Positions 1,620 to 18,599 of a stretch of DNA of 50,769 nucleotides are shown piece by piece; within the stretch, counting starts at the first letter, position 1, and each line of letters begins with the position of its first letter. The translations under genes and the position numbers were made by a program. The notes under the pieces were generated by a model. That model saw only the letters and a program-made list of their open reading frames with translations, did not search any database and was not told where the DNA came from. The stretch is taken from assembly GCA_017625835.1 (NCBI GenBank), contig JAGAKF010000079.1:1-50769 (forward strand), read 5' to 3'. Source of the DNA: Clostridia bacterium. GTDB lineage: Bacteria > Bacillota > Clostridia > Oscillospirales > Acutalibacteraceae.

Positions 1620-3659
1620 TTATTCGTCGTCTTCGACCTTAGCTTCAGCGATAACCTTTTCTGCAACTGAAGCAGGAGCGTCTTCATAACGTGTGAAGTC
1701 GAATGTGTAGTAGCCTCTGCCTGCTGTAACTGAACGAAGAACTGTTGAGAAGTTGTTCATTTCAGCCATCGGAACTTCAGCAACAAGCTCCTGATACTTA
1801 GGCTCTTCTTCGGAAGCGCCCATACCGAGAACACGACCGCGACGCTTTGTAACGTCACCCATGATGTCGCCGAGGAATGCCTCAGGCATAACAGCCTTAA
1901 GAGTACCAACGGGCTCAAGGATTGTCGGATTTGCCTGCGGAACACCGTTCTTGAACGCGATGCTTGCAGCCATCTTGAATGCCATTTCAGATGAGTCAAC
2001 CGGATGGTAAGAACCGTCGTAAAGAACAGCCTTAAGACCAACCATCGGATAACCTGCCATAACGCCTCTCTTCATGCACTCGAGAAGTCCCTTTTCAACT
2101 GCGGGGAAGAAGTTCTTCGGAACTGAACCGCCGACAACTTCTGACTCGAATACAAGTCCTTCTTCTTCTGTGGGCTCAAAGCGGATCCAAACGTCACCGA
2201 ACTGTCCGTGACCGCCTGACTGTTTCTTATGACGTCCCTGAACCTGAACAGTCTTGCGGATTGCTTCTCTGTAAGCAACGCGGGGAACTGTAAGTTCAAC
2301 GTCAAGACCGAATTTACTTCTGAGCTTGGAAACGATGATGTCAAGGTGCTGCTCGCCGAGACCTGAAAGAACCTGCTCCTTGGTTTCTTTGTTCATTTCG
2401 AACTTGATTGTCGGATCTTCTTCAAGAAGACGGTTGATAGCAGAAACGATCTTTTCTTCGTCGCCCTTCTTGCAAGCCTTTACAGCCATTGAAAGGCAAG
2501 GTGTCGGGAATTTAACACCGCTGAGCTCGATAACGTTGTTAGCGGCGCAGATTGTGTCGCCTGTTTTAACGCAGTTAAGTTTTGTAACAACGCCGATGTC
2601 ACCTGCAGGGATGCACTTGCAGTCTTCCGACTTGTTGCCACGAACTGTGATAATCTTACCCATTCTTTCTGTTTCGCCTGTACGTGCGTTGTAAACAGGA
2701 GTTTCGGGAGTGATCTTACCGCTGCTTACCTTGAAGTAAGACATCTTACCAACGAACGGGTCAGCAACTGTCTTGAAGCAAAGAGCTGCAAGAGGTCCGT
2801 TTTCGTCACAGTCAACGTCCTTACCGCCTGCGTATGAAGCTGCGTCGGGAGCTGAGTATGCAAGTTCGTCCATAAGCATCTCAACGCCGTCCATTGTGTA
2901 GCCTGAGCAAGCGTATACGGGATAAACTGAAGATTCGTTAACGCCCTGGTTAAGAGCATCGATAATTTCTTTTCTTGTGAACTCTTCGCCTGCGAAGAAT
3001 TTTTCCATAAGGTCGTCGCTTGCAGTTGCAACAGCTTCTGTGAGGATGTCGAGCATTTCCATGATCTTCGGATCGTTCGGCATCGGGATTTCAGTAGCCT
3101 TGCCGTCCTTGTACTCAAAGCCCTTACGTGATGCAAGGTTAACGTAAGCCTTAACCTGACCGTCAACTATGTAAGGAACGATAACGGGACAAACAGCGCC
3201 GCCGTGAACTGCACGTACTTCTTCAAATGTTTTATAGAAGTCAGCGTGTTCCTTATCACAACGAGTGATAGCGAACATCTTACCTCTTTTCTTAGCTGCC
3301 TTGAATGCCTTTTCAGCACCAACGTCATATTTATGGCCTGCACCGAGAACGATGAGAACGCACTCAGATGCTGTGATACCTTCAGCCATTTCACCCTCAA
3401 AGTCGAAGAGACCCGGAGTGTCGATTATATTAAGCTTGCAGTCTTTCCACTCGATGGGAGCAAGAGCTGTTGCAACGGAAACGTGGCGTCTCTTCTCTTC
3501 GGGATCGAAGTCAAGAGCTGTGTTTCCTTCTTCAACACGACCCAATCTGTCTGTAAGACCTGCGATATAAAGCATAGCCTCTGCAAGAGTTGTTTTACCT
3601 CTTCCTGCATGACCTGCGAGAGCGACATTACGAATGTCTTTAGCGTTATAGTATTTCAA
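1620..3659 (-). CDS. EF-G-like translational GTPase (FusA paralogue)
   Basis: At 679 residues it has the full EF-G domain layout: GTPase domain at the N terminus, beta-barrel domain II, and domains III-V. Domain IV carries the conserved GGHGQFGDVW block. The P-loop is GHAGRGKTT (16-24) and switch II is DTPG (80-83). The guanine-specificity motif NKxD is replaced by TRCD (132-135), and the usual RGITI switch I reads RRHVSVATA. These departures, plus the length, place it with the EF-G-like paralogues (sometimes called EF-G2) rather than the housekeeping EF-G. Its role in translocation, recycling or stress is not settled by sequence. It is monocistronic, with its own promoter and terminator. Confidence 0.85.
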   Translation of the reverse strand: MKYYNAKDIRNVALAGHAGRGKTTLAEAMLYIAGLTDRLGRVEEGNTALDFDPEEKRRHVSVATALAPIEWKDCKLNIIDTPGLFDFEGEMAEGITASECVLIVLGAGHKYDVGAEKAFKAAKKRGKMFAITRCDKEHADFYKTFEEVRAVHGGAVCPVIVPYIVDGQVKAYVNLASRKGFEYKDGKATEIPMPNDPKIMEMLDILTEAVATASDDLMEKFFAGEEFTRKEIIDALNQGVNESSVYPVYACSGYTMDGVEMLMDELAYSAPDAASYAGGKDVDCDENGPLAALCFKTVADPFVGKMSYFKVSSGKITPETPVYNARTGETERMGKIITVRGNKSEDCKCIPAGDIGVVTKLNCVKTGDTICAANNVIELSGVKFPTPCLSMAVKACKKGDEEKIVSAINRLLEEDPTIKFEMNKETKEQVLSGLGEQHLDIIVSKLRSKFGLDVELTVPRVAYREAIRKTVQVQGRHKKQSGGHGQFGDVWIRFEPTEEEGLVFESEVVGGSVPKNFFPAVEKGLLECMKRGVMAGYPMVGLKAVLYDGSYHPVDSSEMAFKMAASIAFKNGVPQANPTILEPVGTLKAVMPEAFLGDIMGDVTKRRGRVLGMGASEEEPKYQELVAEVPMAEMNNFSTVLRSVTAGRGYYTFDFTRYEDAPASVAEKVIAEAKVEDDE

Positions 3660-3753
3660 AACAATTCCTCCTTGTTTATCATTGAGCGTCAGGTTGTATT
3701 TGCTGTGGTTTTTGTATTAAAAATCATCCTGCTTACCAACGCGTCATGCTGTT

Positions 3754-3782
3754 ACTATATCACATATCAACAGAAAAAACAA
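3754..3782 (-). promoter_or_regulatory. Extended -10 promoter of the EF-G-like gene
   Basis: Minus strand: TTGTTT, 17 nt, TATAGT, with TG one base upstream of the -10 (extended -10). It leaves a leader of about 90 nt before the ATG at 3659, in which no known riboswitch fold was recognised. Confidence 0.5.
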
Positions 3783-3834
3783 TAGAAATTGAAAAAATAT
3801 GTTCAAAATATTTAAAAAATCAACAAAAAATAAC

Positions 3835-3865
3835 GGCTGTGAGCATCGTAATGAAGCCCACAGCC
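3835..3865 (-). terminator. Terminator downstream of the LRR-dockerin gene
   Basis: Stem GGCTGTG/CACAGCC with a 17-nt loop, then GTTATTTTTTG on the minus strand, 55 nt past the stop at 3920. Confidence 0.65.
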
Positions 3866-3919
3866 ATGTGTTGTAAATTTTAAGTTGTACAATTTGTATA
3901 AAGTGCCGATTTTTACAGG

Positions 3920-6175
3920 TTATCTTACTATACCGTAGTCAAGCGTTGCGTCGGCATTCATAAGTTTAACAGAGATCTGAAGCATTGCAAGAGCATCGCC
4001 TGAATTGATTTTACCATCATGGTTGATGTCGCTTGCTTTTACCTTGCACGGATCTTCAATGAGGGCGGATTTAACTGCGTGCTGGAGTACTGCGAGAGCA
4101 TCGCCTGAATTGATCTGACCGTCACCTGTGCAATCGCCCATAACGATCATTTTGTATGCGTAGGTATTGTTCGCATTGGTAAGTGAAAAATCATTACCTG
4201 TTGCAACTTTTCCGGGAGCAACAACTTCCGTGAAGCTTTCTGTCGGGAAGTTTTCCATCATCGCAGTGATGTCCGGCTTGTTCTGATAAACGATTATATA
4301 CTTATTGATATGGTCAATTACAGACGGAATATCGAATGAGAAGAGGGGATAATCCTTGCTGTCGAAGGGCTCGAATGTGAACTTGTTGTGCTTTGCAAAT
4401 TCGTCAGCAGGAGAAACAATGTAGCCGCGTACAACAAAATCGGGTATTGCAACGAGCTCAGTTTCGCCTGTGGGCTTGCCTTCTGCGTCTTTCTTTTCAG
4501 CTGTTGTGAAGCCGAAAGCGTTTGCACCGATTTCTACGATATCCTTACCAAGCTCGATTGAAGCATACGGCTTGTTGGTACAGAAAACGTTTTTGCCGAT
4601 TTTTGTAATACCGTCTGATACGGTGATTGACTGGATATCATAATCTGCAAACGGAAGGTTTTCAATGTTGGCATCAGCAATTTCGCCTGTTCCACTGACT
4701 GTGAGGATCATTGTGTCCTTGTCGTAAGTCCAGGAAATTGTCTCGCTGAGCTTGCCTTCGGTAATGACAAATTTACCGAGAGAGTTGAATTTAACCTTAT
4801 TTTCGTCCGCATAAGTTTTTGCAACAGAGTTGTCGTAACCTGTGATGCTTGTGCCTTCACGGAGAGTCGGTTTGCCGCTCTTGTCGTAATAACCGATAGC
4901 TTTTTCGCCGATTTCCGCAATCTTCTCGTTAAAAGCAAAGTCAACGGCAGGTGCATTGTAGAAAGCGTAGTTGCCGATTCTTGTAATCTTTTCGTCAATT
5001 ACAATCTTTTCAAAAGGAATGAGGTTGTACTGAATGAAATCGGTGCTGCTGTAGTCAGCGGTTGAACCTTCACCCTTGATGTAAAGAGTCTTTTCTTCTT
5101 CGTTGTAATTCCATGTTACTTTTTCGCCGCAGGTGCCTTCTGTGATGTATCCGACAGCGTTAAGCTTGAAATTATGCTTATCAGCGTATTTTACGACAGT
5201 CTCAACGTTTGCATAACCGTTGATTGTGAAACCGATTACTTTAGAACCCCATCTGCCGTATCCGACAGCTTTTTCACCGATAACCGTTGTGGAAGCGGGG
5301 ATAGTGATTGATTTGAGCGATGAGCAACCGTAGAATGCGTTGTTTCCGATTTCGGTGAGCTTGCTCGGAAGATTAACGGTTTCAAGGGCCTGACAGCTGT
5401 AACAAACGTTAGCAGGAAGCTTTGTGATTGACTCGGGGAATGTTATTGTCGTAAGAGCACGACAACCTTCAAGGGCACTTTCCCTGATTGTTGTAAGAGT
5501 TGACGGGAAAGTGATTTCCTCGAGACTTTCGCAGCTGAAGAATGCACGTGTGCCGAGAGTTGTAAAACCTTCGGGAAGAGCAACCTTCTGAAGAGAGGTA
5601 CACTCGGAAAAAACTGATTCTTCAATGGATTTTAATGTATCAGGGAAAGCAATTGTTTCAAGAGAAGAGCATTTTGCAAAGGCGTTCTTGCCGATAGACT
5701 GTGTTTTTGCGCTTAATGTAACATTTTTGAGCGCCTTACAGCCGTAAAACATATTATCGCTGACTCTTATCACTTCTGTCGGGAGAGTTACGCTCTCAAG
5801 AGCCTCGCAACCCATGAATATTCCTTTACCAAGTACTGCAATGTTGTCAGGAATAACAACGGATTTAAGCTTGCTGCTGTAACAGAAAGCATAGTCACCG
5901 ATACCTGTTATATCCTTGCCGAAAACGATGCTTGTGTACTCAACATCTTTCCACGGATACTTAAGCTCGATGTCTCCTTTGTCGTTTGTGTAATCGTCGT
6001 AGTCGTAGATAGAACCTTCACCTTCGAAACTAAGCTCGCCTGTTTCAGGGTTGAAGCTCCATGTTACGTTTGAACCTTCGATTGCATTGCCTTCAGCGAA
6101 TGCCGTAACGAGACCGGACATAAGCGTAGCAAGAACAATACAGAAAGAAAGAAAAACAGAAATTGATTTTTTCAT
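3920..6175 (-). CDS. Secreted BspA-type leucine-rich-repeat protein with dockerin
   Basis: The protein has 751 residues. A signal peptide (1-28: basic MKK, hydrophobic core, AFA cleavage site) is followed by many repeats of the LRR_5/BspA type, recognisable from recurring cores such as IGNNAFYGCSSLKSI and IGENAFxxC. At the C terminus two dockerin type I half-sites can be read: GDCTGDGQINSGDALAVLQ and DINHDGKINSGDALAMLQ, each with the Ca-binding DxxxDG loop. Dockerins bind cohesins, so the protein is probably displayed on a cellulosome-like scaffold or the cell surface. BspA-type LRRs commonly mediate adhesion or protein binding. It is monocistronic behind a perfect consensus promoter. The binding partner is unknown. 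Confidence 0.85.
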   Translation of the reverse strand: MKKSISVFLSFCIVLATLMSGLVTAFAEGNAIEGSNVTWSFNPETGELSFEGEGSIYDYDDYTNDKGDIELKYPWKDVEYTSIVFGKDITGIGDYAFCYSSKLKSVVIPDNIAVLGKGIFMGCEALESVTLPTEVIRVSDNMFYGCKALKNVTLSAKTQSIGKNAFAKCSSLETIAFPDTLKSIEESVFSECTSLQKVALPEGFTTLGTRAFFSCESLEEITFPSTLTTIRESALEGCRALTTITFPESITKLPANVCYSCQALETVNLPSKLTEIGNNAFYGCSSLKSITIPASTTVIGEKAVGYGRWGSKVIGFTINGYANVETVVKYADKHNFKLNAVGYITEGTCGEKVTWNYNEEEKTLYIKGEGSTADYSSTDFIQYNLIPFEKIVIDEKITRIGNYAFYNAPAVDFAFNEKIAEIGEKAIGYYDKSGKPTLREGTSITGYDNSVAKTYADENKVKFNSLGKFVITEGKLSETISWTYDKDTMILTVSGTGEIADANIENLPFADYDIQSITVSDGITKIGKNVFCTNKPYASIELGKDIVEIGANAFGFTTAEKKDAEGKPTGETELVAIPDFVVRGYIVSPADEFAKHNKFTFEPFDSKDYPLFSFDIPSVIDHINKYIIVYQNKPDITAMMENFPTESFTEVVAPGKVATGNDFSLTNANNTYAYKMIVMGDCTGDGQINSGDALAVLQHAVKSALIEDPCKVKASDINHDGKINSGDALAMLQISVKLMNADATLDYGIVR

Positions 6176-6246: not shown

Positions 6247-6252
6247 CGGAAA

Positions 6253-6280
6253 AAAGAGGTCAGAATTTTCTGACCTCTTT
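6253..6280 (-). terminator. Terminator closing the phage head cassette
   Basis: A perfect inverted repeat of 13 bp (AAAGAGGTCAGAA and its complement) with a T-run on the minus strand, 5 nt beyond the last stop codon. It makes the eight-gene cassette a self-contained transcription unit. Confidence 0.85.
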
Positions 6281-6284
6281 TCTT

Positions 6285-7115
6285 TTACTTAAAGGCTATG
6301 TAATTGTAGGACATTCCGAGATCGTTTAATGCGAGCGTTGAACCGCCGGCTGTGCCTGACTGAGTTTTAAATCCATTTGTTGTAATAACAATTCCGGTAG
6401 TCGTGCTTTCAATAGCCATTGCCTGATATGTTTTGGCGGTTGAATTTGTAAAATTAACTCTTACGGCGGGGAAACCTGCGGCAAAAACAATGACAAAAGA
6501 AGGCTTGAAACCAACAGAAATTGATTGGGAAGACTCGCCGTCACCGAAATACGTTCCGGCAATGAACGGTTCGTTCCATTTAAGTTTGTCGGTTCCCGTA
6601 ACGTGAATCGTGGTGTTTCGGATGTGACTTCCGCAAAGCAACTCCTTGTCCAGGAAAGAAATAAAATTCTCGTCTGTACTTTCTGCGGGGCAGAAGTCCG
6701 CTTCCATAAGGAACCAGCCCGTCATAACAAGCGCATCGGTATCACGGTCGGATTTGATTTCTACACAGCCTGATTCAAGAATATTGAGGTTTGTACGGAA
6801 AGTCAGTGCATTTGCAATACGGGTGAAGATATCGTGGCAGGTCTGACCGCCCATTGAAAACGGAACGCAAATGCTCAGGTTGGCTTTGATTTTTGCAAGT
6901 CGACAGTACTCCTGACGTTCAAGAACACCGTCGTCATTGGCAACAAATTTGTCAACGATTTCAATATTGTCGATACCTACGGCAACAATTGACCTTCGCA
7001 GAGGCACGGCTTTGTTGACGGGAGGATATTCAACGAAAAACTTGATGTCTTTCATATCATCCTGCGAAGAAAGCCAGTCAACAATTCGTTGCGGCAAAGA
7101 AACTATACTGTCCAT
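6285..7115 (-). CDS. Phage tail-terminator/minor-structural protein fused to a beta-rich C-terminal domain
   Basis: The ATG at 7115 (276 residues) is preferred over the TTG one codon earlier because GGAGG lies 7 nt upstream. It overlaps the preceding TGA in TGATG. About 165 N-terminal residues look like a small head-tail or tail-terminator protein: they contain FVEYPPV and a central strand-rich region with TCHDIFTRIANAL. The last 90 residues are a Gly/Ser/Thr-rich beta domain ending SYNYIAFK, a style seen at the C-termini of Firmicute phage fibre or baseplate proteins. It is the last gene of the cassette, where a tail module would normally begin. The function is inferred from position, and the family assignment is uncertain. 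Confidence 0.5.
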   Translation of the reverse strand: MDSIVSLPQRIVDWLSSQDDMKDIKFFVEYPPVNKAVPLRRSIVAVGIDNIEIVDKFVANDDGVLERQEYCRLAKIKANLSICVPFSMGGQTCHDIFTRIANALTFRTNLNILESGCVEIKSDRDTDALVMTGWFLMEADFCPAESTDENFISFLDKELLCGSHIRNTTIHVTGTDKLKWNEPFIAGTYFGDGESSQSISVGFKPSFVIVFAAGFPAVRVNFTNSTAKTYQAMAIESTTTGIVITTNGFKTQSGTAGGSTLALNDLGMSYNYIAFK

Positions 7116-7450
7116 CAATCCACCTCCACAATTTCTCTGATGATTGCCCAGACATAAATAACTTCATTCTTGAAATAAACCTTTTCGCTTCGGTCTACGG
7201 TAAATTTCTGAGAGTTGGACTCAATCCACTGTTCGTTGTCAAGCTTACTTACATCGTGGTCAGGGGGGCCGATATAAAGGTAATGGCCCTGACTGTTAAA
7301 ACCGATAACGGTATTAACGCCATTGAGGTACATTTTGTTTTTGTATCTCAGTGGTTGGATGAAGCCGCCGAAAATCGGCGTACTCCATCCGTCTGAACCC
7401 TTGAAGGTGATTTCTTGTCCGTATTTTTCAAATAAAGCTGTTAAAGTCAT
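7115..7450 (-). CDS. Phage head-closure/minor capsid protein
   Basis: This is a 111-residue protein translated by an ATGA overlap with the gene before it and a TGATG overlap with the gene after it, so the three are translationally coupled. The motif GHYLYIGPPDHDVSKL resembles small head-completion proteins encoded just after the capsid and connector genes in PBSX-like phages. It has no signal peptide or membrane segment. In a head assembly line such a protein would seal the portal-connector complex. The assignment rests mainly on gene order. Confidence 0.5.
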   Translation of the reverse strand: MTLTALFEKYGQEITFKGSDGWSTPIFGGFIQPLRYKNKMYLNGVNTVIGFNSQGHYLYIGPPDHDVSKLDNEQWIESNSQKFTVDRSEKVYFKNEVIYVWAIIREIVEVD

Positions 7451-7842
7451 AGCATCACCTTTATCTTTACGTTTTCAAAAGCAAATCCGTTATCCTGACA
7501 AAGGGGGATCAGAACCTGAAGAGCTTCGTGATAGAGCTTTTCTGCTTTATCGAGGATTTTGGATGAATTACCCGTGCTGTTCTGCGTAATGCTTACGTCA
7601 CCGGCCTTGAAGCTTGTAATTCCGTCTGTTTCGGAAGAAGAACTTCTTTTAATAGAAAGCTTGTAGTAAGCTTTGGCTGCCGCTGCAGCAGAAATTCTGG
7701 CATCCGAACGGTCAGCATCTGCCTTGAGCATAGACTCAATTTCATTCAAAGAGGATTTGCAAAGAGCAAGGATTTTTTCTTCCTCTTCTTCTCCCCAGCA
7801 AGTAAGGTCAGAAAGGTAATCTTTAACTTCCCAGGCTGTCAT
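7447..7842 (-). CDS. Phage head-tail connector protein
   Basis: The predicted protein has 131 residues and is mostly helical: an acidic N-terminal third (WGEEEEEKILALCKSSLNEI), a run of alanines (AAAAAKAYYKLS), and a C-terminal helix. This fits the small helical adaptor (gp6/gp15-like) that docks on the portal. It begins 3 nt after the capsid stop codon, and its TGA overlaps the next ATG in ATGA. No enzymatic motif is seen. Position directly after the major capsid gene is the main support. Confidence 0.55.
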   Translation of the reverse strand: MTAWEVKDYLSDLTCWGEEEEEKILALCKSSLNEIESMLKADADRSDARISAAAAAKAYYKLSIKRSSSSETDGITSFKAGDVSITQNSTGNSSKILDKAEKLYHEALQVLIPLCQDNGFAFENVKIKVML

Positions 7843-7845
7843 TGA

Positions 7846-8904
7846 TTATTCACCCTCGATAACTCCGCCTGATTCGTCACCGGTGTTGAAGCCCTGCGGG
7901 GCAAGTGTTTTTACGCAACCCGGAAGAATTCTTGCGAAGCCTGTGATTGATGTGATAGCAATCTGCTCAAGCTGTCTGTCAACGAGCTTGCCGTAATCTG
8001 TTTCAATGTCGCCGACCTTAACCATTTCAAGTGCACAGTTCTTGTCAAGACCGATCATCATATCGGGATTTGTTACAAAGCTTGTGCTGATAAGGTTTGC
8101 GCCGAAAGGTGTGATGAGCTTGCCTGTACCGTGGAAATTAAGTCCTGCTGCAGCATCTCTGAACTCGTCCATCTTCAAAAGATTGTTTGTTGCATTTGTT
8201 GCAGCGAGGATTGTGTTAAGCTCGTACGGAGCAAAGCTTGACCAAAAGTCGATAAGGTCAGAATATGTGCATACTGATGACATCGGGATGAAAGCTTCTG
8301 CAGAATTGCCTGCATCCTTTGCATCACCGTTGAGCAAAACGTCAACAGCATCAGCCATAAGGCTCTGTGCGAGGTAAGCACCGATTCTCTTAAGAGCGAT
8401 CGAAACAATGTCAAGGCGCTGGAAACGAAGCACGTCGTATGATGTTGTAATCATTCTGCCGCGCTTCTTAAGGCGGATTGTTCTGTCGCTTACCGTGAAG
8501 TCTGCGTTAGCAAGAGTGTCACCCTCGGAAATGACGTTCATTGTTGCATTTTCAGAAGTCATCTGAAGGTCCATAACGCGATAGTCCATAGAGTCAATGT
8601 TTGTTGTTGTAGCTACGATGTCGGGGAGAAAGCTTGCTTCGTCCATACCGTAACGGACAGCACGTGAAACATATTCTGGGAAAAGAACAGCGGCATCGCT
8701 TGTCTGGAAAAATTTGCCGACGACGGAGCTGTCAGCGCCTGTGGGCTTGATATCAAAACGCTTGAGCTGTCTTTCGTAAGCATCAAGTCCTTCGAACTCA
8801 GTACCCTTATAATTCTCTGTCGGGTCAAGAGCTTCAAGTGTCTGTGTAAAAGAACGGCCTGTGCCGTACATACCTTTTTCAAGTCTTATATTATCAAAAC
8901 TCAT
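7846..8904 (-). CDS. Phage major capsid protein (HK97-fold type)
   Basis: The protein has 352 residues, within the size range of HK97-like capsid subunits. Its place between the protease gene and the connector gene is the canonical one. The N-terminal 75 residues are charged and could act as a scaffold-like region. The middle segment TIRLKKRGRMITTSYDVLRF resembles the conserved core of several Firmicute phage capsid proteins. The C-terminus is Gly/Glu-rich. GGAGG precedes the ATG. The reading frame is uninterrupted, with no sign of decay, and base composition is like the neighbouring host genes. Confidence 0.75.
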   Translation of the reverse strand: MSFDNIRLEKGMYGTGRSFTQTLEALDPTENYKGTEFEGLDAYERQLKRFDIKPTGADSSVVGKFFQTSDAAVLFPEYVSRAVRYGMDEASFLPDIVATTTNIDSMDYRVMDLQMTSENATMNVISEGDTLANADFTVSDRTIRLKKRGRMITTSYDVLRFQRLDIVSIALKRIGAYLAQSLMADAVDVLLNGDAKDAGNSAEAFIPMSSVCTYSDLIDFWSSFAPYELNTILAATNATNNLLKMDEFRDAAAGLNFHGTGKLITPFGANLISTSFVTNPDMMIGLDKNCALEMVKVGDIETDYGKLVDRQLEQIAITSITGFARILPGCVKTLAPQGFNTGDESGGVIEGE

Positions 8905-8916
8905 TTTAAGTCCTCC

Positions 8917-9882
8917 TTAAAATTTATATTCATTATTGTTTACTGTTTTTGTTTCCTTTTTTGCTTTAAGCTGCGGCGAAAGAGGAATAACTTCACCGGC
9001 TTTTGTTCTGAAAGCGTCCCTGAGCTTCATAAGCTCGCGTGTCTCAGTTTGCGCACACATTTTTTCAATACTCTCACCGTCAAGTGAGGGCACGCTTATC
9101 AATGCAAATTTCACAACTTCTTCCGTAAGGCTCTTTCTGAAAAGTCTGCCGTCTTCGGCATCTTTTTCAAGCGACGAAATATAATCGCAGATTTCACGCG
9201 ACTGCTGTCGTGTGAATTTTACACATTCACCGTTTTTGATGGCTTTGATAAGATCCTGTGTCTTTCTGAATTTGCTTTCATAGCCCTTAGTAACGCCTGC
9301 ATTGACCTGCGCGGGAATTGCGACGAAAGACCACTCGTAAGCGTCGGTAATGTCAGATAAAACACAGTGGCAGAGCTTGCCGTTGTATGTTTCACCCTTT
9401 ATATGACCGCAGTTGCCGTGGCGGATGTCGTTTCCGCAGACGGAACAGGTAAAGCTGTTTGCGGAACAGCTTACGCTTACTTCTTTCTTTATTCCTGCAT
9501 CAATCTCTGCGATAAGATCTGCGTTCTTATTTGTACGGGGCATATATGCCTTTGCCTTTACGCAGATATATTCGTCACCGAGAGAAGTGATTTTGCCGGG
9601 GATTTTTTCGCATTTTGCGGTAAAAATTCTTGCTGTCTGGTTGCCGCTACCGGGATTGTGGTCGAAAATTCCCGTAACGCCCACAAAAAGAACGGCCATT
9701 TTTTCAAGCGCCGCAATATCGAAGCGCTCACAGTCGCGGTCAACCTCGTTATCGCAAAGGATAACGTTGAAAGTGTAAACTTCCTCTGCTGAAAGTTCCT
9801 TGACGGTCAGCTTGTTGATAAGCTGTAATTCCTCATCAGTGACCGCGCAGGGAGAAACACTTGTTTTAAATTCTTTATTCAT
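8917..9882 (-). CDS. Phage prohead protease/scaffold with Cys-rich zinc knuckle
   Basis: The protein has 321 residues. The N-terminal half looks like a capsid-maturation serine protease: GIFDHN (71-76) supplies a candidate catalytic His (H75), and the strand EVSVSCS (134-140) a candidate Ser (S136). Between strands is an unusual cluster C146, C149, C158, H160, C171, C173 that could bind zinc. The C-terminal third, rich in charged helix, could be the scaffold segment that is removed during maturation. Its ATG overlaps the end of the portal gene by 8 nt. The order portal-protease-capsid is that of PBSX-like phages. Catalytic residues are proposed from motif style only. Confidence 0.6.
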   Translation of the reverse strand: MNKEFKTSVSPCAVTDEELQLINKLTVKELSAEEVYTFNVILCDNEVDRDCERFDIAALEKMAVLFVGVTGIFDHNPGSGNQTARIFTAKCEKIPGKITSLGDEYICVKAKAYMPRTNKNADLIAEIDAGIKKEVSVSCSANSFTCSVCGNDIRHGNCGHIKGETYNGKLCHCVLSDITDAYEWSFVAIPAQVNAGVTKGYESKFRKTQDLIKAIKNGECVKFTRQQSREICDYISSLEKDAEDGRLFRKSLTEEVVKFALISVPSLDGESIEKMCAQTETRELMKLRDAFRTKAGEVIPLSPQLKAKKETKTVNNNEYKF

Positions 9883-11017
9883 TGTTCTTTAACTCCTGTT
9901 CGATCCTTTTTGTCTGTGCTCTGTAAAGAGCCGCCTTTGAAAGTTCAACCTCATCCTGAAGCGTAATGTTGTTCCAGACAACCTCAGCAGTATCCTGAAT
10001 TCCGTTTGAAACAAGCCAGAAACGGCAGATCTTTTCGATTACGGGTGTAAGAATCCTTCTGTACGCTTCAAGCTCACTTGTCAGCACGTCGGCCTGCTGT
10101 GAAGACATTCTTTCCGTCGAAGACCAGCTTAAACCGAGCATAAACGGCGGAATACCTGTCTTTGCAACGATCTGCTCAAGCATCTGGCGAACGGGGACCT
10201 CACTGTCAAGAATCTGATTGTCCGCACCGATCGCCTTTATGCTTACGTCGCCAACGGCAACAAAGTCGCGTATCTGCTTGCCGGACTGCATAGCTTCGCT
10301 CCATTCGCGAGCGACCTGCTGCGCTCTGTCCTTGGCATACGCTCTGTCAACAACATCGTTCTGCGGCTTGTAGGTAACGGCAAAACGCACGTTGCCGACA
10401 CGCTCCCAGTTGATACCGATTGTATTGTAAATCTTCATAAGAATGTTGGTTACAAACGGAAGACCTTTCATAATTGAGTTTCCGCAAAGCTGACCTGCCT
10501 CAGGATTGAGGACGGAAAGGGTCACGAGCTGTGGATATGCAACGGGTGCGGTTTCGTAAAAATTCTTTACGCAAACAATGGCGGAAATGCCGTCATCACC
10601 ACGTTTGAGTTCAATGTCGTCAAGGTCAGCGTTGTAAAGTGCGGCAAATCTGCCGTTGGAATCCGTAACGATTTCGCCGACAGCGGTGCCGTAAGTAATA
10701 AGCTGTTCAAGATAGGTTGAAATAAAAGCCTCTATGCCTTGCTGATTTCCGCCGACGCAGATGTTTTTAAGAAAATGGTCGAGTGCTTTTGTGTTTGCTT
10801 CTTTTGAACACTCAATCTCGAAACCGCCCGTAAGACGGACAATTTTATGAATCGCCGCATCAAGCACGGGAACAGCCTCGCGCAATTCCCTGAAAAGTGA
10901 GTTCTGCGCAGTGGCAAGAGGTACATAGTTATCAAGACGGTCGAAAGGATTGTGTCGGTAAGTTTGGGGAACAGAAACTGCAGTTTTTGCAGAGGATAAT
11001 TTTTTGAAAATTCCCAC
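9875..11017 (-). CDS. Phage portal protein
   Basis: The predicted protein has 380 residues. The start is a GTG at 11017 with AGGAGA 6 nt upstream. Typical portal features are visible: an N-terminal part with an alternating alpha/beta clip-like region, and a long C-terminal helical segment with GIPPFMLGLS followed by SSQQADVLTSELEAYRRIL and then PVIEKICRFW, as in PBSX-family portals. The portal forms the dodecameric vertex through which DNA is packaged. It lies directly after the large terminase gene (39-nt gap) and overlaps the protease gene by 8 nt. The frame is intact. Confidence 0.8.
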   Translation of the reverse strand: MGIFKKLSSAKTAVSVPQTYRHNPFDRLDNYVPLATAQNSLFRELREAVPVLDAAIHKIVRLTGGFEIECSKEANTKALDHFLKNICVGGNQQGIEAFISTYLEQLITYGTAVGEIVTDSNGRFAALYNADLDDIELKRGDDGISAIVCVKNFYETAPVAYPQLVTLSVLNPEAGQLCGNSIMKGLPFVTNILMKIYNTIGINWERVGNVRFAVTYKPQNDVVDRAYAKDRAQQVAREWSEAMQSGKQIRDFVAVGDVSIKAIGADNQILDSEVPVRQMLEQIVAKTGIPPFMLGLSWSSTERMSSQQADVLTSELEAYRRILTPVIEKICRFWLVSNGIQDTAEVVWNNITLQDEVELSKAALYRAQTKRIEQELKNNE

Positions 11018-11056
11018 TTAAGCTCTCCTTTCATTTTTTAAAAGATGGGGAGTGTA

Positions 11057-12328
11057 TCAGCGTGATACACTCATTACGAAAAAGTCGTTGTCAGGTGCGT
11101 TTAGCGCCGTAGTGACGAAATATCTGATATCGTCCATGGCATGGTCATTTTCCTTGCGCGGTGCATCTCGGCCTGCTTTTTCGTCCCATTTGTAAAGAGA
11201 AAATTCTCTCAGCGTATCCTCACACTCGGGCGAGAAATAAATCAATTCCTGCTTGAGTGCATCGGATACCTGACGGATACCGTCGAGAACATCGTTCTTT
11301 GCGGGTATCACGGTGAATCGGCCTTTGCGGCGGATACATTGGATAAAACTTGCCGCCGACGGGTCAACGATAACTGCTTCGGGATTGAGACATCCTGCCA
11401 GCTTTTCAAGCTCAGCGTAATGCTCGATATCAGTGCGCTGTACACCCTCGGTGCGCGAATTATAATAGTATTCGCGAAGCCTGTACCATTTACCGTTATA
11501 TTCTCCCCACAGACCGAAAGAACAAGGGTTCACGGTGCCGTAGTCGCAGGAGATGTAATAACGGCTGATAAGACTCTCGTCGGAAAGCCTGCGCACATGA
11601 ATATCATTTGAAAACATCGGATAAACCGCACCTTGTGCGGCAACCCATTTTCCCTCAACAAAGCGCTGATAGAAAGCACCCGAATAAAGGCTTTCGTATC
11701 GTCTGATTATCGAGGGAGTCAGCGCAGGATTGTCGCGCATTGTAAAGTGAAGATAAAGACAGTTTTTCTCCGAAGCTTTCTTGATCCATTCGCGGTAAAA
11801 CCAGTGCATGGGATGTTCGGGGTTGCAGTTGAACCACATTTTTGAGCGATCCAACGAGCAACGCGCGATTGCCTGCTCAACGAATGAACGCGGCATAAGT
11901 GCTACCTCGTCAAGGAGTACACCCCCGAGGGTCATACCCTGAATAAGTGAAGCTGAGCCTTCGTCTTTTCCGCCGAAAAGATAGAAACGGTTCATTTTAT
12001 CCTTGTAGGTGATTTCAATAAAATTCTGCGAAGCCTTCATTTTCAAACCGAAGCCGAGGGAGGTAAGTATTGGTGTCAACGGTGTGATAACGTTGCGTTT
12101 AAGTGATGCTATTGTTTTGCCGCAGATTGCAAATGAAGTTTCGTTGAAATCATAGAAAGTCCACGCTACAAACGAAAGGGACATACAAACGGTCTTTCCC
12201 GAACGGACTGCGCCGTCACAGATGATTGCGTCGTAGCGATGTTTGTCGGAATTACGGCACCACCAGGTCAGCACATCAAGCTGTTTAGGCGAAAATTCGG
12301 AAAAAACTGTAAGTGCGTTGTTACTCAT
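11057..12328 (-). CDS. Phage terminase large subunit (PBSX type)
   Basis: The protein has 423 residues. The ATPase domain shows Walker A GAVRSGKT (39-46) and Walker B LGGVLLDE (D140, E141). The C-terminal RNase-H-like nuclease has its expected acids at D262 (SCDYGTVNP), D321 (VIVDPS) and in HAMDDIRYF near residue 400. All catalytic residues of both domains are therefore present. The enzyme cuts concatemeric DNA and drives it into the prohead. Its ATG lies 8 nt inside the end of the small-subunit gene, so the two are coupled. This is the best-supported phage gene of the cassette. Confidence 0.92.
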   Translation of the reverse strand: MSNNALTVFSEFSPKQLDVLTWWCRNSDKHRYDAIICDGAVRSGKTVCMSLSFVAWTFYDFNETSFAICGKTIASLKRNVITPLTPILTSLGFGLKMKASQNFIEITYKDKMNRFYLFGGKDEGSASLIQGMTLGGVLLDEVALMPRSFVEQAIARCSLDRSKMWFNCNPEHPMHWFYREWIKKASEKNCLYLHFTMRDNPALTPSIIRRYESLYSGAFYQRFVEGKWVAAQGAVYPMFSNDIHVRRLSDESLISRYYISCDYGTVNPCSFGLWGEYNGKWYRLREYYYNSRTEGVQRTDIEHYAELEKLAGCLNPEAVIVDPSAASFIQCIRRKGRFTVIPAKNDVLDGIRQVSDALKQELIYFSPECEDTLREFSLYKWDEKAGRDAPRKENDHAMDDIRYFVTTALNAPDNDFFVMSVSR

Positions 12329-12806
12329 CTTCGTTTCCCCTTAATGCGGCAGCGCTCTTTTCAAGAGCAAGATAAAAGGGAAGGGCAGAGTCATCGCTCT
12401 GGCCTGAGCTTAACGCCTCGAGATGTTCGAGAGCTTTCAGACGGTCGAAGAATTTGATCTCAATTCCGCCGCCCTTAGGCTTTTTGATCTCACTTACGTT
12501 AAAAAGCTCAAGGCTTTCAAGCTCATACTTGTCCGGTCGCTCATCGTAATAAACGAGCTTGAGCGCATCGGCAACTGAACCGAAAGCCAGCTGACGGTAA
12601 CCCGAAATAACCTCCTCTGCGCTGACAAGCCGTGTGCGGTCAATCCGTTCAATCTCCTTGCGGATTTCTTCGCGCGACATAAGCTTGGCGGCGCTCCTGT
12701 GAGTCAGTATTCCGTAACCCGCCTTCGCGGCAGCGTTACGCGCATTTCTTGATTCTGAGTAATAAGTACAGAACAGTTTTTCCTTTTCTTTGAGTGCCAT
12801 TTGCAT
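12321..12806 (-). CDS. Phage terminase small subunit
   Basis: The protein has 161 residues. The N-terminal region matches the terminase small-subunit helix-turn-helix pattern (LKEKEKLFCTYYSESRNA, then AAAKAGYG), which recognises packaging DNA. The C-terminal half is charged, as expected for the oligomerisation and large-subunit contact region. The ATG at 12806 has AAGGAG upstream; a second ATG two codons later is possible. It is the first gene of the cassette and is preceded by a leader of hairpins rather than by an integrase or repressor gene. Confidence 0.85.
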   Translation of the reverse strand: MQMALKEKEKLFCTYYSESRNARNAAAKAGYGILTHRSAAKLMSREEIRKEIERIDRTRLVSAEEVISGYRQLAFGSVADALKLVYYDERPDKYELESLELFNVSEIKKPKGGGIEIKFFDRLKALEHLEALSSGQSDDSALPFYLALEKSAAALRGNEDE

Positions 12807-13047
12807 TTCCTTTCTCCTTGGGTTTCTGAGAAAATCCTCTCACCCTTAGCGCAAAAAAATACAGGTTATACCCCGAAAAGGTTATAACCTGTGCGTTATT
12901 TGCAAAAAAATATTTTTTTGTGATATTTTACAAAAACAAAATAAAAAATTTTTATATTTTAAAAATGAGTATTTGATATGAAAAAATGAGAAAAACGGAG
13001 AAAAAACGAGCTTGTAAAAGTTAAATTAAAAAATTGCAAAAAAGGTA
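12807..13047. promoter_or_regulatory. AT-rich divergent intergenic region between phage cassette and rplM
   Basis: About 240 bp of very A/T-rich DNA. It holds the leader hairpins of the cassette (separate entry), a repeated 11-mer GCAAAAAAATA at 12851 and 12902, and homopolymer tracts. No convincing minus-strand promoter for the cassette could be picked out, and no attachment-like repeat was seen. Confidence 0.5.
12854..12891 (-). promoter_or_regulatory. Terminator-like leader hairpin upstream of the phage cassette
   Basis: Arms CAGGTTATA (12862-12870) and TATAACCTG (12883-12891) form a perfect 9-bp stem with a 12-nt loop. On the minus strand it is followed by TATTTTTTTG, as in an intrinsic terminator. 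It stands about 50 nt before the small terminase start. GGTTATAACC (12880-12889) is itself a palindrome and GGTTATA is repeated directly, so an operator role is also possible. Confidence 0.5.
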
Positions 13048-13076
13048 TTGACTTCTTTTTGGGGTTATGGTAAACT
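13048..13076 (+). promoter_or_regulatory. Promoter of rplM-rpsI
   Basis: TTGACT, 17 nt, TAAACT. The leader would be about 28 nt, with GGAGG at 13099-13103; it is too short for an L13 autoregulatory leader. Confidence 0.75.
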
Positions 13077-13110
13077 ATCCGAGCATTAAAAATTATTTGG
13101 AGGTAAGTTT

Positions 13111-13539
13111 ATGTCAACTTATATGCCTAAGGCGAACGACATCGTTCGTAAGTGGTATGTGCTTGACGCAGCAGGCAAGCCGCTCGGTCGCGTAGCAACA
13201 GTAGCAGCTGATCTTCTCCGCGGTAAGCATAAGCCCACATTCGCACCGCACGCAGATTGCGGCGACCATGTAATCGTTATCAACGCAGAAAAAGCTATTC
13301 TTACAGGCAACAAGCTCAACCAGAAGATGTACTACCATCACACAGGTTATGTTGGCCACATGAAGGAAGTTAAGTACAGCACTCTTATGCGTACAAAGCC
13401 GACTTTCGCAATGGAAAAGGCTATCAAGGGTATGATCCCCGACACAACAATCGGCCGTGAAGCTCTTACAAGACTTCGTGTATATGCTGGTGCAGAGCAC
13501 AAGCATGCAGCACAGAAGCCTGAAGAGTGGGCATTTTAA
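13111..13539 (+). CDS. rplM: 50S ribosomal protein L13
   Basis: The protein has 142 residues, the normal length for bacterial L13, with the family landmarks WYVLDAAGKPLGRVAT near the N-terminus, GDHVIVINAEK in the middle and KGMIPDTTIGREALTRLRVY near the C-terminus. It binds 23S rRNA early in 50S assembly. It is the first gene of the classical rplM-rpsI operon, 18 nt from rpsI, and the ATG has a strong GGAGG site. Confidence 0.98.
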   Translation: MSTYMPKANDIVRKWYVLDAAGKPLGRVATVAADLLRGKHKPTFAPHADCGDHVIVINAEKAILTGNKLNQKMYYHHTGYVGHMKEVKYSTLMRTKPTFAMEKAIKGMIPDTTIGREALTRLRVYAGAEHKHAAQKPEEWAF

Positions 13540-13557
13540 TGAAGGGAGGCAAATATA

Positions 13558-13956
13558 ATGTACGATTCAATTCCGTATTTCTATGGTACAGGCCGTAGGA
13601 AGAAGTCTGTTGCACGTGTTCGTGTATATGCAGGTACAGGTAAAGTTACAATCAACGACAGAGATATCGACGATTATTTCGGTCTTGAAACACTTAAGCT
13701 CATCGTTCGTCAGCCTCTCGAGTTGACAGGCACAACTGAAAAGTTTGACATCGTATGCCGTGTAAACGGTGGTGGCGTAACAGGTCAGGCTGGTGCTATC
13801 CGTCATGGTCTTTCAAGAGCTCTCCTTCAGTATGACGAGGCTCTTCGTCCGGCACTTAAGAAGGCTGGTTTCCTTACTCGTGACCCGAGAATGAAGGAAA
13901 GAAAGAAGTACGGTCTCAAGGGCGCACGTCGTGCTCCGCAGTTCTCAAAGAGATAA
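13558..13956 (+). CDS. rpsI: 30S ribosomal protein S9
   Basis: The protein has 132 residues with the S9 signature [19 protein letters not shown] and the basic C-terminal tail ending in APQFSKR, which reaches the P-site tRNA in the ribosome. The gene is complete. Its last 17 bp (13940-13956) are also found, identical, at 15995-16011: an integrated element has used the rpsI 3' end as its attachment site and restored the reading frame. Confidence 0.98.
13940..13956 (+). repeat. attL: attachment core at the rpsI 3' end
   Basis: The 17-bp sequence AGTTCTCAAAGAGATAA covers the end and stop codon of rpsI and recurs exactly at 15995-16011. Bases on either side do not match, so this is the core. A tyrosine-recombinase relic lies just inside. 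Confidence 0.8.
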
Positions 13957-13972
13957 AGTTTTCTCAAATTAC

Positions 13973-14006
13973 AAGGTCTTGGAGATTTTCTCCGAGACCT
14001 TTTTTA
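13973..14006 (+). terminator. Terminator just inside the rpsI island
   Basis: Stem AAGGTCTTGGAG/CTCCGAGACCTT with one G-T pair, then TTTTTA. It is now the first terminator after rpsI. A second one, probably the ancestral operon terminator, lies beyond attR at 16042. Confidence 0.8.
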
Positions 14007-14115
14007 TTCGCTTGTGAAAGCGACTGAATACACATAAATGCATGTCACAACGTACCATTATGTGGACCAAAAAAAGAAGCCGGAACAAATCCGGCTTTTA
14101 AAATAATTTTTATTA

Positions 14116-14262
14116 TCATTTTAATTTGTTCAGTTCTTTCAAAAGAGAATCAATAAACGGTTTTGTATATGTATCAATACCCACATCACCGGTTGAATGA
14201 CCTTGTATTTTACTGCGTTTAACCTGGTTTAGATTCTGGTCAGACCAACGTGTTGAAAAAGT
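14116..14262 (-). pseudogene. C-terminal relic of a tyrosine recombinase (integrase)
   Basis: Translating the minus strand to the stop at 14116-14118 gives a fragment ending GHSTGDVGIDTYTKP, then FIDSLLKELNKLK. The spacing from the GH pair to the Tyr (GHx9Y) equals that of the catalytic GH...Y block of phage-type integrases. No start codon or upstream catalytic Arg box is present, so it is a truncated remnant. Its place next to attL, pointing outward to the attachment site, is where integrase genes of such elements usually sit. The similarity is judged by eye over about 30 residues. Confidence 0.5.
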
Positions 14263-14459
14263 TACTCGAACATCATGGGGAAGATGCTTTGCTTACTGAA
14301 CTTGAAAAACAAATCTCCGAAAAACTGTCAGGCGAAGAAAAGGATTTATTTCTGAAATACACAGACAAGTATATTGAATTTACCACCAGAAGTCTTACCG
14401 ATGCTTTTGTTTCCGGTTTTCGTTTAGGCGCAAAATTTACACACGACACATTCATATAA
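14250..14459 (+). CDS. Small DUF6809-like protein, probably 5'-truncated
   Basis: The predicted protein has 69 residues and is helical, with a charged stretch (ELEKQISEKLSGEEKDLF) and the ending AFVSGFRLGAKF, similar to the C-terminal two thirds of DUF6809 proteins found in mobile elements of Clostridia. The usual N-terminal segment is missing and no ribosome site is seen before the ATG, so it is probably a remnant. It overlaps the integrase relic on the other strand. The family match is from memory of its motif. Confidence 0.4.
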   Translation: MLKKLLEHHGEDALLTELEKQISEKLSGEEKDLFLKYTDKYIEFTTRSLTDAFVSGFRLGAKFTHDTFI

Positions 14460-14498
14460 AAATCCCTTCCTCCTTTCATTTGAGGGTCATGACATATC

Positions 14499-14527
14499 AA
14501 GCTCCGCAGAGTTTTCCTGCGGAGCTT
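14499..14527 (+). terminator. Hairpin after the DUF6809-like relic
   Basis: Perfect 11-bp stem AAGCTCCGCAG/CTGCGGAGCTT with a 7-nt loop followed by GTGTGTTTT. A probable terminator, although the T-run is interrupted. Confidence 0.55.
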
Positions 14528-14550
14528 GTGTGTTTTCGGTATGCAACCTG

Positions 14551-14578
14551 TTGCAACGAGAAAGATTTGTGATATAAT
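14551..14578 (+). promoter_or_regulatory. Promoter of the sialidase-fold gene
   Basis: TTGCAA, 16 nt, TATAAT with upstream TGTGA (extended -10), 36 nt before the ATG at 14615. Confidence 0.65.
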
Positions 14579-14614
14579 GTGATTATTATAATTCAACGAT
14601 GGGATTGAGATAAA

Positions 14615-15796
14615 ATGGTTCTTTTTCGTTTTTTGCTTGCGTTGCTGACGGTTTTTGGAACGCTGTTTCCGAGTGCAGGTCTGAATTTTGAATATAAGCA
14701 TCTTCCGATTGAGTTTGAGATTGAGTCCGTGAGTGACATATATGTTCCTGCGGATAACAACGCAAACGTGGTTGAATATCCCTCAATCATAAAACTTCGC
14801 CATCAGAAGAACGAAGCTGATAACGGCAAGTTGCTCGCAACGTTTGAGAAGTGGGGCGACACTTATCCCATATACGAGAGCAACGATGATGCTGAAACGT
14901 GGCAATACGTCTGCACGGTGAAAGACAACCTTAACGAAGGCTACTGGAACGAATGGATGCCGTTCCTTTATGAGTTGCCTGCGGATATCGGCGATTTTGA
15001 AAAGGGCACGGTCATTCTTGCTGCAACGTCAATATACGGCGAAGGCGTTACGGACAGCACGATAACTCTTTATTCAAGCAACGATGCGGGCAAATCGTTC
15101 AACGCTTTCTGCAACGTTGACAGAGCAGGCGGAATTGAATGGGGAGTATGGGAGCCATATTTGATTTATGAGGAAGAAACAGGCAGACTTTTCTGTTTCT
15201 ATTCTGACGATTCAGACCCCGAGCATTCGCAGAAGCTTGTTTATAAATACACAACCGACCTTGTTAACTGGAGCGAGAAGTTTGAGTGCGTTGCCTGCTC
15301 CGATTCTTCACTCAGACCCGGTATGGTTTCAATTGCTAAAATGGGCAACGGCGAATATTTAATGGTTTACGAGATGGTCGGTATTTTTATGAATCCGATT
15401 TATTGCAAGAGAACGACTTCTCTTGATGATTGGGGAGACGTTTCGGATTACGGCAAGATAGTTTCCGCAGGCGGCAAAACTTTCGGCTCGTCTCCGTGCG
15501 TTGCGTGGTCACCCGTCGGCGGTGAATGCGGAACACTTATTGTTACAGGTCGACACGCTATCAGAGGCGAAAGCGATACGGGTGCGGATATGTTCATCAG
15601 CTTCGATTACGGCAAAACCTTTGCTCCGATTGATAATCCCATTCCGTATCAGACCGATGAACCTTTCGTAAAATGCGGTTACAGTCCCTCACTCTTTTTC
15701 TCGGAGGACGGAACAACGCTTTACTACATCAACAACCCTCCGTGTTATGAATCAACTTATAAGATAACGGTTGCAAAAATCAGAATTTCGGATTGA
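14615..15796 (+). CDS. Secreted sialidase-fold (BNR/Asp-box) glycosidase-like protein
   Basis: The protein has 393 residues. The N-terminus has a signal-peptide-like hydrophobic core (residues 2-20). Asp-box motifs of the six-bladed sialidase propeller can be read: SNDDAETW, SNDAGKSF and SFDYGKTF. The fold is shared by sialidases and by exo-arabinanase-type enzymes such as GH93; the exact substrate cannot be called. The usual FRIP motif and arginine triad of true sialidases were not recognised, so another exo-glycosidase, or a binding-only protein, is possible. It is the only intact gene of the rpsI-inserted element and is most simply read as its cargo. Confidence 0.6.
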   Translation: MVLFRFLLALLTVFGTLFPSAGLNFEYKHLPIEFEIESVSDIYVPADNNANVVEYPSIIKLRHQKNEADNGKLLATFEKWGDTYPIYESNDDAETWQYVCTVKDNLNEGYWNEWMPFLYELPADIGDFEKGTVILAATSIYGEGVTDSTITLYSSNDAGKSFNAFCNVDRAGGIEWGVWEPYLIYEEETGRLFCFYSDDSDPEHSQKLVYKYTTDLVNWSEKFECVACSDSSLRPGMVSIAKMGNGEYLMVYEMVGIFMNPIYCKRTTSLDDWGDVSDYGKIVSAGGKTFGSSPCVAWSPVGGECGTLIVTGRHAIRGESDTGADMFISFDYGKTFAPIDNPIPYQTDEPFVKCGYSPSLFFSEDGTTLYYINNPPCYESTYKITVAKIRISD

Positions 15797-15994
15797 CTCC
15801 TCTGCTGAAAATGTCAATATTTTGTCAACAAGTCAGGATATTTGAGCTTTTTCGGGGTCGGTTACAAACTGCGGCAAGTTACGGCAAATGCCTTTTTATT
15901 GACTTTTTGCCCGTTTGTCAATGTCAATCTGAGTGATTTGTCGAATTACGGCAGGTTATGACAAGCAAAAACAAGGTAACTACAGACACCCTCA
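15797..15994. promoter_or_regulatory. Non-coding attR-proximal segment with repeated motifs
   Basis: No open frame is seen. TGTCAA occurs at 15812, 15823, 15916 and 15922, and TTACGGCA at 15879 and 15946. Clusters of short direct repeats beside an attachment core resemble integrase or excisionase arm-type binding sites; the role is inferred. Confidence 0.4.
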
Positions 15995-16011
15995 AGTTCT
16001 CAAAGAGATAA
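15995..16011 (+). repeat. attR: duplicated rpsI end
   Basis: Exact 17-bp copy of the rpsI 3' end (13940-13956), 2.05 kb downstream and outside any gene. It marks the far edge of the element. Confidence 0.8.
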
Positions 16012-16041
16012 TCTGTCCCGAATGGGTTTTATCTTACAATC

Positions 16042-16075
16042 AAAGCTCGTTGGCTTCGGTCAACGAGCTTTTTGT
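16042..16075 (+). terminator. Probable ancestral rplM-rpsI terminator
   Basis: Perfect 11-bp stem AAAGCTCGTTG/CAACGAGCTTT with an 8-nt loop followed by TTG. It lies 30 nt beyond attR with no gene before it, as expected if the element separated rpsI from its own terminator. Confidence 0.75.
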
Positions 16076-16103
16076 TTACTTTAATTCTAGTTTGTGATAA
16101 TAT
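16075..16103 (+). promoter_or_regulatory. Promoter of the small membrane protein gene
   Basis: TTTACT, 17 nt, TAATAT, with TG one base upstream of the -10. GGAGG follows before the ATG at 16133. Confidence 0.5.
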
Positions 16104-16132
16104 ATTAATATCAACCTGACGGAGGTGTTTTT

Positions 16133-16462: not shown

Positions 16463-16469
16463 AATATGC

Positions 16470-16520
16470 AAAAAGAAAGAACAGAAAACTTTTACGATTC
16501 TGCTCTTTCTTTTAATTTTT
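16470..16520 (+). terminator. Terminator of the small membrane protein gene
   Basis: A long imperfect stem formed by AAAAGAAAGAACAGAA and TTCTGCTCTTTCTTTT (one unpaired base), followed by AATTTTTC. Confidence 0.7.
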
Positions 16521-16522
16521 CA

Positions 16523-16551
16523 TTTACTATTTTTGTCACAAATGATATTAT
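16523..16551 (+). promoter_or_regulatory. Promoter of the ZIP transporter gene
   Basis: TTTACT, 17 nt, TATTAT, about 36 nt before the ATG at 16588. No clear Zur-type palindrome was seen. Confidence 0.4.
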
Positions 16552-16587
16552 AGACATATACTAATAGCAGAGCCAAGGGGGATTTTT

Positions 16588-17343: not shown

Positions 17344-17356
17344 AAACTAAAAAATT

Positions 17357-17390: not shown

Positions 17391-17394
17391 TGTT

Positions 17395-18585: not shown

Positions 18586-18599
18586 AAGTTTACCTCCGC

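Follow-up and report, generated by a model that had tools for sequence, protein, structure and literature searches.

We identified in a 50,769-nucleotide stretch of DNA from a Clostridia bacterium (family Acutalibacteraceae, order Oscillospirales; contig JAGAKF010000079.1 of assembly GCA_017625835.1), hereafter the window, a cassette of eight genes for phage head assembly and DNA packaging. Comparative analyses suggest that it is probably a domesticated phage head that is inherited vertically, maintained by selection, similar to a gene transfer agent (GTA) and devoid of the whole tail. The cassette itself is real and intact, and its nature as a vertically kept, selected and tailless head is well supported; a role as a GTA is the most likely reading of the gene content. 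A preliminary description of the window, made from its letters, had anticipated a tailless, selection-maintained and GTA-like cassette, and this much was borne out.

An intact head and packaging cassette

The window is a single contig from a genome assembled from a metagenome, 2.09 Mb in size and 77% complete. Eight open genes, closely spaced or overlapping, occupy its minus strand at positions 6285–12806 and encode the small and large terminase subunits, portal, a protease-like protein, capsid, two connectors and a fusion protein, most of them with matches in Pfam, PHROGs and NCBIfam. The terS gene (12321–12806) encodes the 161-aa small subunit (PF03592, 62 bits; phrog_2606) and terL (11057–12328) the 423-aa large subunit (PF03237), which a family test assigned to the PBSX-family large terminases (TIGR01547, 206.8 bits). 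The TerL motifs that we take to be Walker A and Walker B, as well as the late acidic residues, showed no variation across 17 diverse aligned sequences. The portal gene (9875–11017) has a GTG start and encodes a 380-aa protein (phrog_30703, 458 bits; PF04860, 27.1 bits, below the cut-off). The 321-aa product of the gene at 8917–9882 contains a Cys cluster and matches phrog_16951, a group of unknown function. Because of the gene position and an invariant His/Ser pair (His75 and Ser136, unchanged in nine aligned sequences) we named it a probable prohead protease; its model matched no PDB fold (best E 0.13). The major capsid protein (7846–8904; 352 aa) was recognized with PF25209 (42.5 bits) and phrog_3922 (273 bits), and its profile matched no PDB sequence at E 0.01. 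Downstream are a 131-aa head-tail adaptor (7447–7842; phrog_541, E 5.4e-5) and a 111-aa second connector (7115–7450) that had no Pfam, PHROGs or NCBIfam match and is stopper-like by position, its place between adaptor and terminator being kept in relatives. The last gene (6285–7118) encodes a tail terminator (residues 1–150) fused to the segment and tip of a former fibre (residues ~150–277).

The head and packaging genes are chromosomal and the cluster has no replication genes, which matches the definition of a GTA in a recent report: phage-derived head and packaging genes carried in the host chromosome as a cluster without autonomous replication genes (PMC12946183). Elsewhere in the window, a Pfam scan of the 30 larger open reading frames (ORFs), with smaller ones outside the scan, detected no phage or integrase family; eight were unmatched and one encodes an M23 peptidase, 27 kb from the cassette.

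Vertical inheritance and purifying selection

The capsid protein was present in 46 of 98 relatives, including all 18 genomes of the window's genus, 25 of 42 from the rest of the family and 3 of 38 from other families of the order. It is single-copy in 17 of the 18 genus genomes. The remaining one, G004, has two copies, the second of which (G004:C152:2332-3324) is divergent (54% identity). TerL was detected once in each genus genome (18/18) and, at E 1e-20, the profile matched 99 of 394 genomes across the order, some of the distant matches being other phage terminases. All eight genes were recovered, by profile or ORF, in 15 of the 16 genus loci holding the whole cassette. Neither portal nor capsid matched the profiles of this lineage in loci of genus g106. 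Another locus, L156 (G193; 8705–18615), has a head module whose TerL is distantly PBSX-like and in which neither capsid nor portal matches the lineage, adjoining genes that by eye resemble pyruvate kinase and phosphoglucomutase.

To follow inheritance, a tree of TerL, portal and capsid was compared with one of rpoB for 35 of the 46 capsid-bearing genomes; G001, G003, G004, G006, G007, G011, G017, G030, G050, G056 and G073 were left out because rpoB was missing or fragmented or the cassette was split or not fetched, and G066, with TerL only, was also out. The two trees were congruent (Mantel r 0.80, p 1e-4) and had 21 of 32 splits in common, with a single well-supported conflict among three very close species. 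The chromosomal flanks are also shared. Eight species, including the window's, have rplM on one side of the cassette and a leucine-rich repeat (LRR) gene, an EF-G-like gene and a third gene on the other; four other genus members carry the cassette at a different common site, and in G001 mgtE lies upstream. Together, rpoB congruence and common flanks give the stable vertical inheritance expected of a GTA. The cassette was passed down with its host; it is not a prophage in decay, and most likely not a mobile satellite either.

The cassette is also under strong purifying selection, a second feature of GTAs. We calculated pairwise dN/dS (NG86) in ten close pairs, and in eight pairs for the flanking genes. 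Values ranged from 0.04 to 0.06 for TerL and from 0.04 to 0.12 for capsid, the two genes for which the preliminary description had proposed this calculation, and were 0.04–0.09 for portal, 0.05–0.13 for the protease (nine defined) and 0.04–0.11 for the fusion gene (six defined). The flanking EF-G-like and LRR genes gave 0.02–0.05 and 0.11–0.23, respectively. Across pairs with dS of 0.1–1.5, medians were 0.06–0.16 for the cassette genes, with between 2 and 58 pairs per gene, and the EF-G-like gene had a median of 0.04; the highest single-pair value was 0.47, from an adaptor pair. The broken frames and relaxed selection of a prophage remnant were not observed, genome G010 being the exception. 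Within the fusion protein, the tip has diverged much more than the terminator domain (median dN 0.57 vs 0.094; 45 pairs).

Tail genes in related loci

We examined the tail genes of relatives in 80 loci from named genomes, which were kept from at least 590 stretches confirmed in a TerL scan. Of these, 32 are of a baseplate type, 23 (24 with the window) of the fusion type, 10 have head and terminator, 5 have head plus hub and 10 are cut by contig ends. Sheath genes were absent from all 80, and a tube-like gene was found in five, all of them among the 32 that keep the baseplate. In family f14 of the order, head genes are followed by a sheath in 8 of 10 fetched loci and by a tube-like protein in 9 of 10, mostly with baseplate genes after; the f14 loci that we read have only small proteins where a tape measure would sit. 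The PHROG sheath match was checked in L155 and in two virome loci.

The gap between the terminator and the next gene is 89–123 nt in 27 of the 32 baseplate-type loci and therefore leaves no room for a tube gene in these 27. Baseplate-type relatives do not all lack sheath and tube: tube-like genes occur in 5 of the 32 named loci and in 10 of another 20 loci from the family, and one of these 20 has a sheath. Eubacterium coprostanoligenes ATCC 51222 is of the baseplate type, with no room for a tube gene: a separate terminator is followed by Gpu-like, hub, spike, gp25-like, baseplate J, gpI-like and fibre genes, some named by order alone. In this species (L070), DnaB_2-type and DnaC-like replication genes, of possible host or phage origin, lie just upstream of the cassette. 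Two intermediates were also seen: L246 (G049) combines head, terminator and a tube-like gene without a baseplate, and L248 (G052), from the window's family, retains sheath, tube and baseplate.

The fusion type, which we found in the window's genus and in four sister genera, has no baseplate genes left at the locus, and its terminator is joined in frame to the former fibre tip. A single ORF spans terminator to fibre tip in the 23 named loci and the window, the start of the fibre being undetected in two of the 23. The fusion is present in 18 of 18 genus genomes, so that the comparison of the same locus in relatives envisaged by the preliminary description returned capsid, TerL and fusion in all 18 and baseplate J in none. 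Fifteen fusion genomes form one group in the rpoB tree with a support of 59, and 14 of them are grouped with a support of 100. Among 143 compared loci, in which some genomes are represented twice, 17 have mgtE 1.1–1.7 kb upstream of terL; of these, 12 are fusion type, 4 baseplate type (L090, L096, L230 and L235) and 1 cut by the contig end. The presence of both types beside mgtE suggests that the tail architecture most likely changed at a single chromosomal site, with a few moves after.

The 10 loci with head and terminator are without baseplate or fibre, and none has a tube or sheath. The five head-plus-hub loci (L099, L103, L105, L109 and L079) end after the hub. Host-type genes come next in L105 and L079, the two that we read; three of the five are labelled Ruminococcus, and the order of capsid and protease is swapped in four. 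Ruminococcus callidus packages 4.6 kb fragments, with no operon named for it (PMC12946183), and the head-plus-hub cassette is a candidate for this activity. We consider it an even call whether these loci trace one inherited GTA lineage across several families, whose tail would have been pared on the chromosome by loss of sheath, tube and baseplate and, last, by fusion of the fibre tip to the terminator. If so, no simpler DNA-delivery head would be known: it would have no tail, and a single ring would serve both to bind receptors and to let DNA out.

Leader, terminator and neighboring genes

The cassette is preceded by a leader (12805–12900, minus strand) with a strong hairpin, a T-run, an element, CTAAGGGTGAGAGG, that includes a small hairpin, and a ribosome-binding site. 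The minimum free energy for the leader is -28.1 kcal/mol (z -3.30). At the other end, a terminator-like palindrome of 13 pairs (6252–6281, no strand assigned) closes the cassette, and no direct repeats were found bracketing it. With eight open frames between these elements, the cassette with its own leader and terminator that the preliminary description had outlined was confirmed. A comparison of the leader with Rfam produced nothing with E under 1.1. The core pattern is exact at terS in 8 of the 18 genus genomes, with variants in others, and in several relatives the arms of the small hairpin covary ahead of the terS start. The combination of a terminator-like hairpin and a conserved element could possibly function as an attenuator.

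A search of the 18 genomes for the leader core returned 19 sites, 8 at terS, 8 within coding sequence and 3 elsewhere, and no site for the reversed pattern. Seven of the eight coding-sequence sites look by eye like one pyruvate oxidoreductase gene, and the three others are all in G017, where one extra copy precedes an ORF whose product has a phage C-terminal domain (L268). A GTA regulon sharing the leader core was not found among the 18 genomes because the sites other than terS were within coding sequence or all in G017.

The host genes that flank the cassette in the window are common to related species on both sides. On the upstream side are rplM and rpsI (13111–13956, plus strand), which were named from sequence with no family search; on the downstream side are genes for an LRR_5/dockerin protein and an EF-G-like GTPase (1620–6175, minus strand). 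The former, a BspA-type leucine-rich repeat protein with dockerin (3920–6175), is directly downstream of the cassette and evolves faster than its neighbors. Among 19 flank proteins of relatives searched with Pfam we detected no integrase and no recognized lysis gene; one was unmatched and the rest are mostly metabolic or transport proteins.

Comparison with known systems and virome records

The nearest published system in kind is the GTA of Faecalibacterium (FpGTA), which Borodovich et al. (2026; PMC12946183) found in 12 of 12 genomes examined. FpGTA I encodes the head, whereas FpGTA II, an operon of some strains only, encodes baseplate, fibre, holin and endolysin, and the two are linked to 40 nm capsids with ~9 kb of DNA and tails that are not identifiable (PMC12946183). 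Both systems are chromosomal operons of gut Clostridia with TerS, TerL, portal, another head protein and capsid, and no replication genes. The window cassette differs in having its terminator fused to the tip and in that baseplate J was detected in none of 20 fusion-type genomes. Furthermore, capsids and their DNA have been observed for FpGTA (PMC12946183), whereas the lineage of the window, and its lack of a tail, are known from genes.

The cassette resembles PBSX of Bacillus subtilis in its PBSX-family TerL (TIGR01547) and in the PBSX-like order of head and baseplate genes in relatives. PBSX has a sheath, a tube, a long tape measure, lysis genes and a repressor, none of which was found at the window cassette. 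The GTA of Rhodobacter capsulatus (RcGTA; PDB 6tba) has a tail, unlike the window cassette. Capsid-forming phage satellites (cf-PICI) have head genes without tail genes as well, yet they carry integrase, replication and regulatory genes and are mobile; the block described here is vertical and has no integrase in the scanned genes. Our literature search, which covered no preprints and few subscription papers, retrieved no description of this lineage, nor one of a terminator-tip fusion accompanied by baseplate loss.

Matches in phage collections were also examined. TerL matches 1299 phage records (best identity, 64%) and the capsid five, all unannotated human faecal scaffolds from Mexico. In L349 (MT835508.1, 'Bacteriophage sp.', human faeces), a head-plus-terminator cassette (18953–25072) sits between what by eye are rnf and ribosomal-protein genes, and the record therefore looks like a piece of host chromosome that was deposited under a phage name. 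Either packaging of host DNA or contamination could explain it, and it was not counted as evidence; a Mexican study of virus-like particles (PMC8361208) may be its source. At least 80 loci from an IMG/VR scan were kept, for comparison use only.

Alternative explanations

The strongest alternative, which we consider unlikely, is that the heads are completed in trans by a tail or baseplate encoded elsewhere, either in a second operon like that of FpGTA, whose baseplate and lysis genes are separate (PMC12946183), or in a resident prophage. Tape measure genes were detected elsewhere in 4 of 22 fusion-type genomes (G003, G008, G017 and G020), and in G051 the cassette and a baseplate J gene are on different contigs, although the cassette is near a contig end and this may be a mere break. 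Against it, Baseplate_J was absent from 20 of 20 fusion-type genomes (3 of 14 control genomes were positive), the lineage's own baseplate J profile found nothing in the 18 genus genomes, and the terminator that would contact a tail now bears a fused tip domain. A sheath was found in only 2 of the 22, G020 and, below the cut-off, G003; both are on the same contigs as the tape measures and are therefore probably part of prophages. With so few tape measures and sheaths, these genomes have no constant tail elsewhere. Neither the locus nor the profile searches of fusion-type genomes revealed a contractile tail with baseplate such as that of PBSX.

That the capsid is a DNA-free, protein-only compartment similar to an encapsulin, as the preliminary description had also entertained, is quite improbable given the purifying selection on TerL, TerS and portal. 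The absence of a tail, and the 10 of 80 named loci that have only head and terminator, would suit such a compartment. However, the portal and TerS are retained, and TerL keeps its motifs and evolves about as slowly as the flanking housekeeping genes. A helper-dependent satellite packaging its own DNA (a PICI-like island), another suggestion of the preliminary description, would account for a head module that is compact and has a leader and terminator of its own, but it is highly improbable because the block is vertical, mostly single-copy and without an integrase in the flank genes examined. The conserved flanks and lack of bracketing repeats also argue against an island, and no integrase was found in the 30 larger ORFs of the window (smaller ORFs being outside the scan) or the 19 flank proteins of relatives.

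We give little credence to a particle for competition or defence, a head plus adhesin that would act on cells or infecting phages rather than move host DNA. The tip does evolve fast, and PBSX is described as a tailocin whose DNA is not injected (PMC12946183), yet PBSX works via a tail that is absent here and the PADLOC defence library gave no match. Least credible is an ordinary prophage remnant that is slowly decaying. In its favour, the cassette lacks genes for tail, lysis and integration, and one of 16 complete genus cassettes has a deletion. Against it, all eight window frames are open, the dN/dS medians are 0.06–0.16 and congruence with rpoB holds across genera. The preliminary description had named tail, lysis or integrase genes beside the block, or frameshifts, as signs of such a remnant. 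Outside the genus, baseplate genes do adjoin the head block in 32 of the 80 loci; sheaths are absent, tube-like genes number five, and the 19 flank proteins include no integrase and no recognized lysis protein. The baseplate-keeping relatives reveal the origin of the cassette rather than an ordinary prophage. Frames were likewise kept, save for the deletion in G010.

Several observations weigh against a vertically inherited, GTA-like head. The particle, its DNA and their transfer are predicted from genes. The chromosomal position of the cassette is not the same throughout the genus. Support for the fusion group is 59% on rpoB, and the head tree neither recovers nor rejects it (AU p 0.176). In G010 (L178, oriented 7141–8167), an in-frame deletion fuses the N-terminal part of the portal to the protease where the two have a short motif in common, either a true loss or an assembly fault or collapse. 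Values of dS are frequently above 1, and for the fusion gene four of the ten close pairs have no dS and the other six exceed 1.5. A weak baseplate J match was found in fusion-type G020, a genome outside the Baseplate_J test; it is on the contig with the sheath and tape measure of G020, probably a prophage. No recognized lysis gene was found, and no genome-wide search for one was made. Finally, 13 of the 18 genus genomes are less than 90% complete or more than 5% contaminated, and the source genome is 77% complete, so absences are not final.

Proposed mechanism and implications

As a GTA-like head, the cassette would operate as follows. By homology, capsid, portal and protease would assemble the head, and TerS and TerL, given their conserved motifs and selection, are predicted to cut double-stranded DNA and pump it inside. 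The cargo would be fragments of the host chromosome, because the locus showed neither a replicon nor a mobility gene. Homology and fold suggest that adaptor, stopper and terminator ring close the neck. The ring bears the fused tip domains of the lost baseplate's fibre, a placement extrapolated from the fusion. The fast-evolving tip may bind other cells or a surface, and DNA could then exit via the neck without a tail tube.

If the cassette is a GTA, vertical selection can retain a phage head and yet strip it of its tail completely, and the need for a tail in DNA delivery to Gram-positive cells becomes testable. The cassette also suggests which genes might underlie the packaging of short DNA fragments in related gut Clostridia, where R. 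callidus has no named operon and none was found for Gemmiger (PMC12946183). The related loci offer a natural series for the domestication of a phage particle, from contractile tail to tube plus baseplate, baseplate only, fused tip and bare head.

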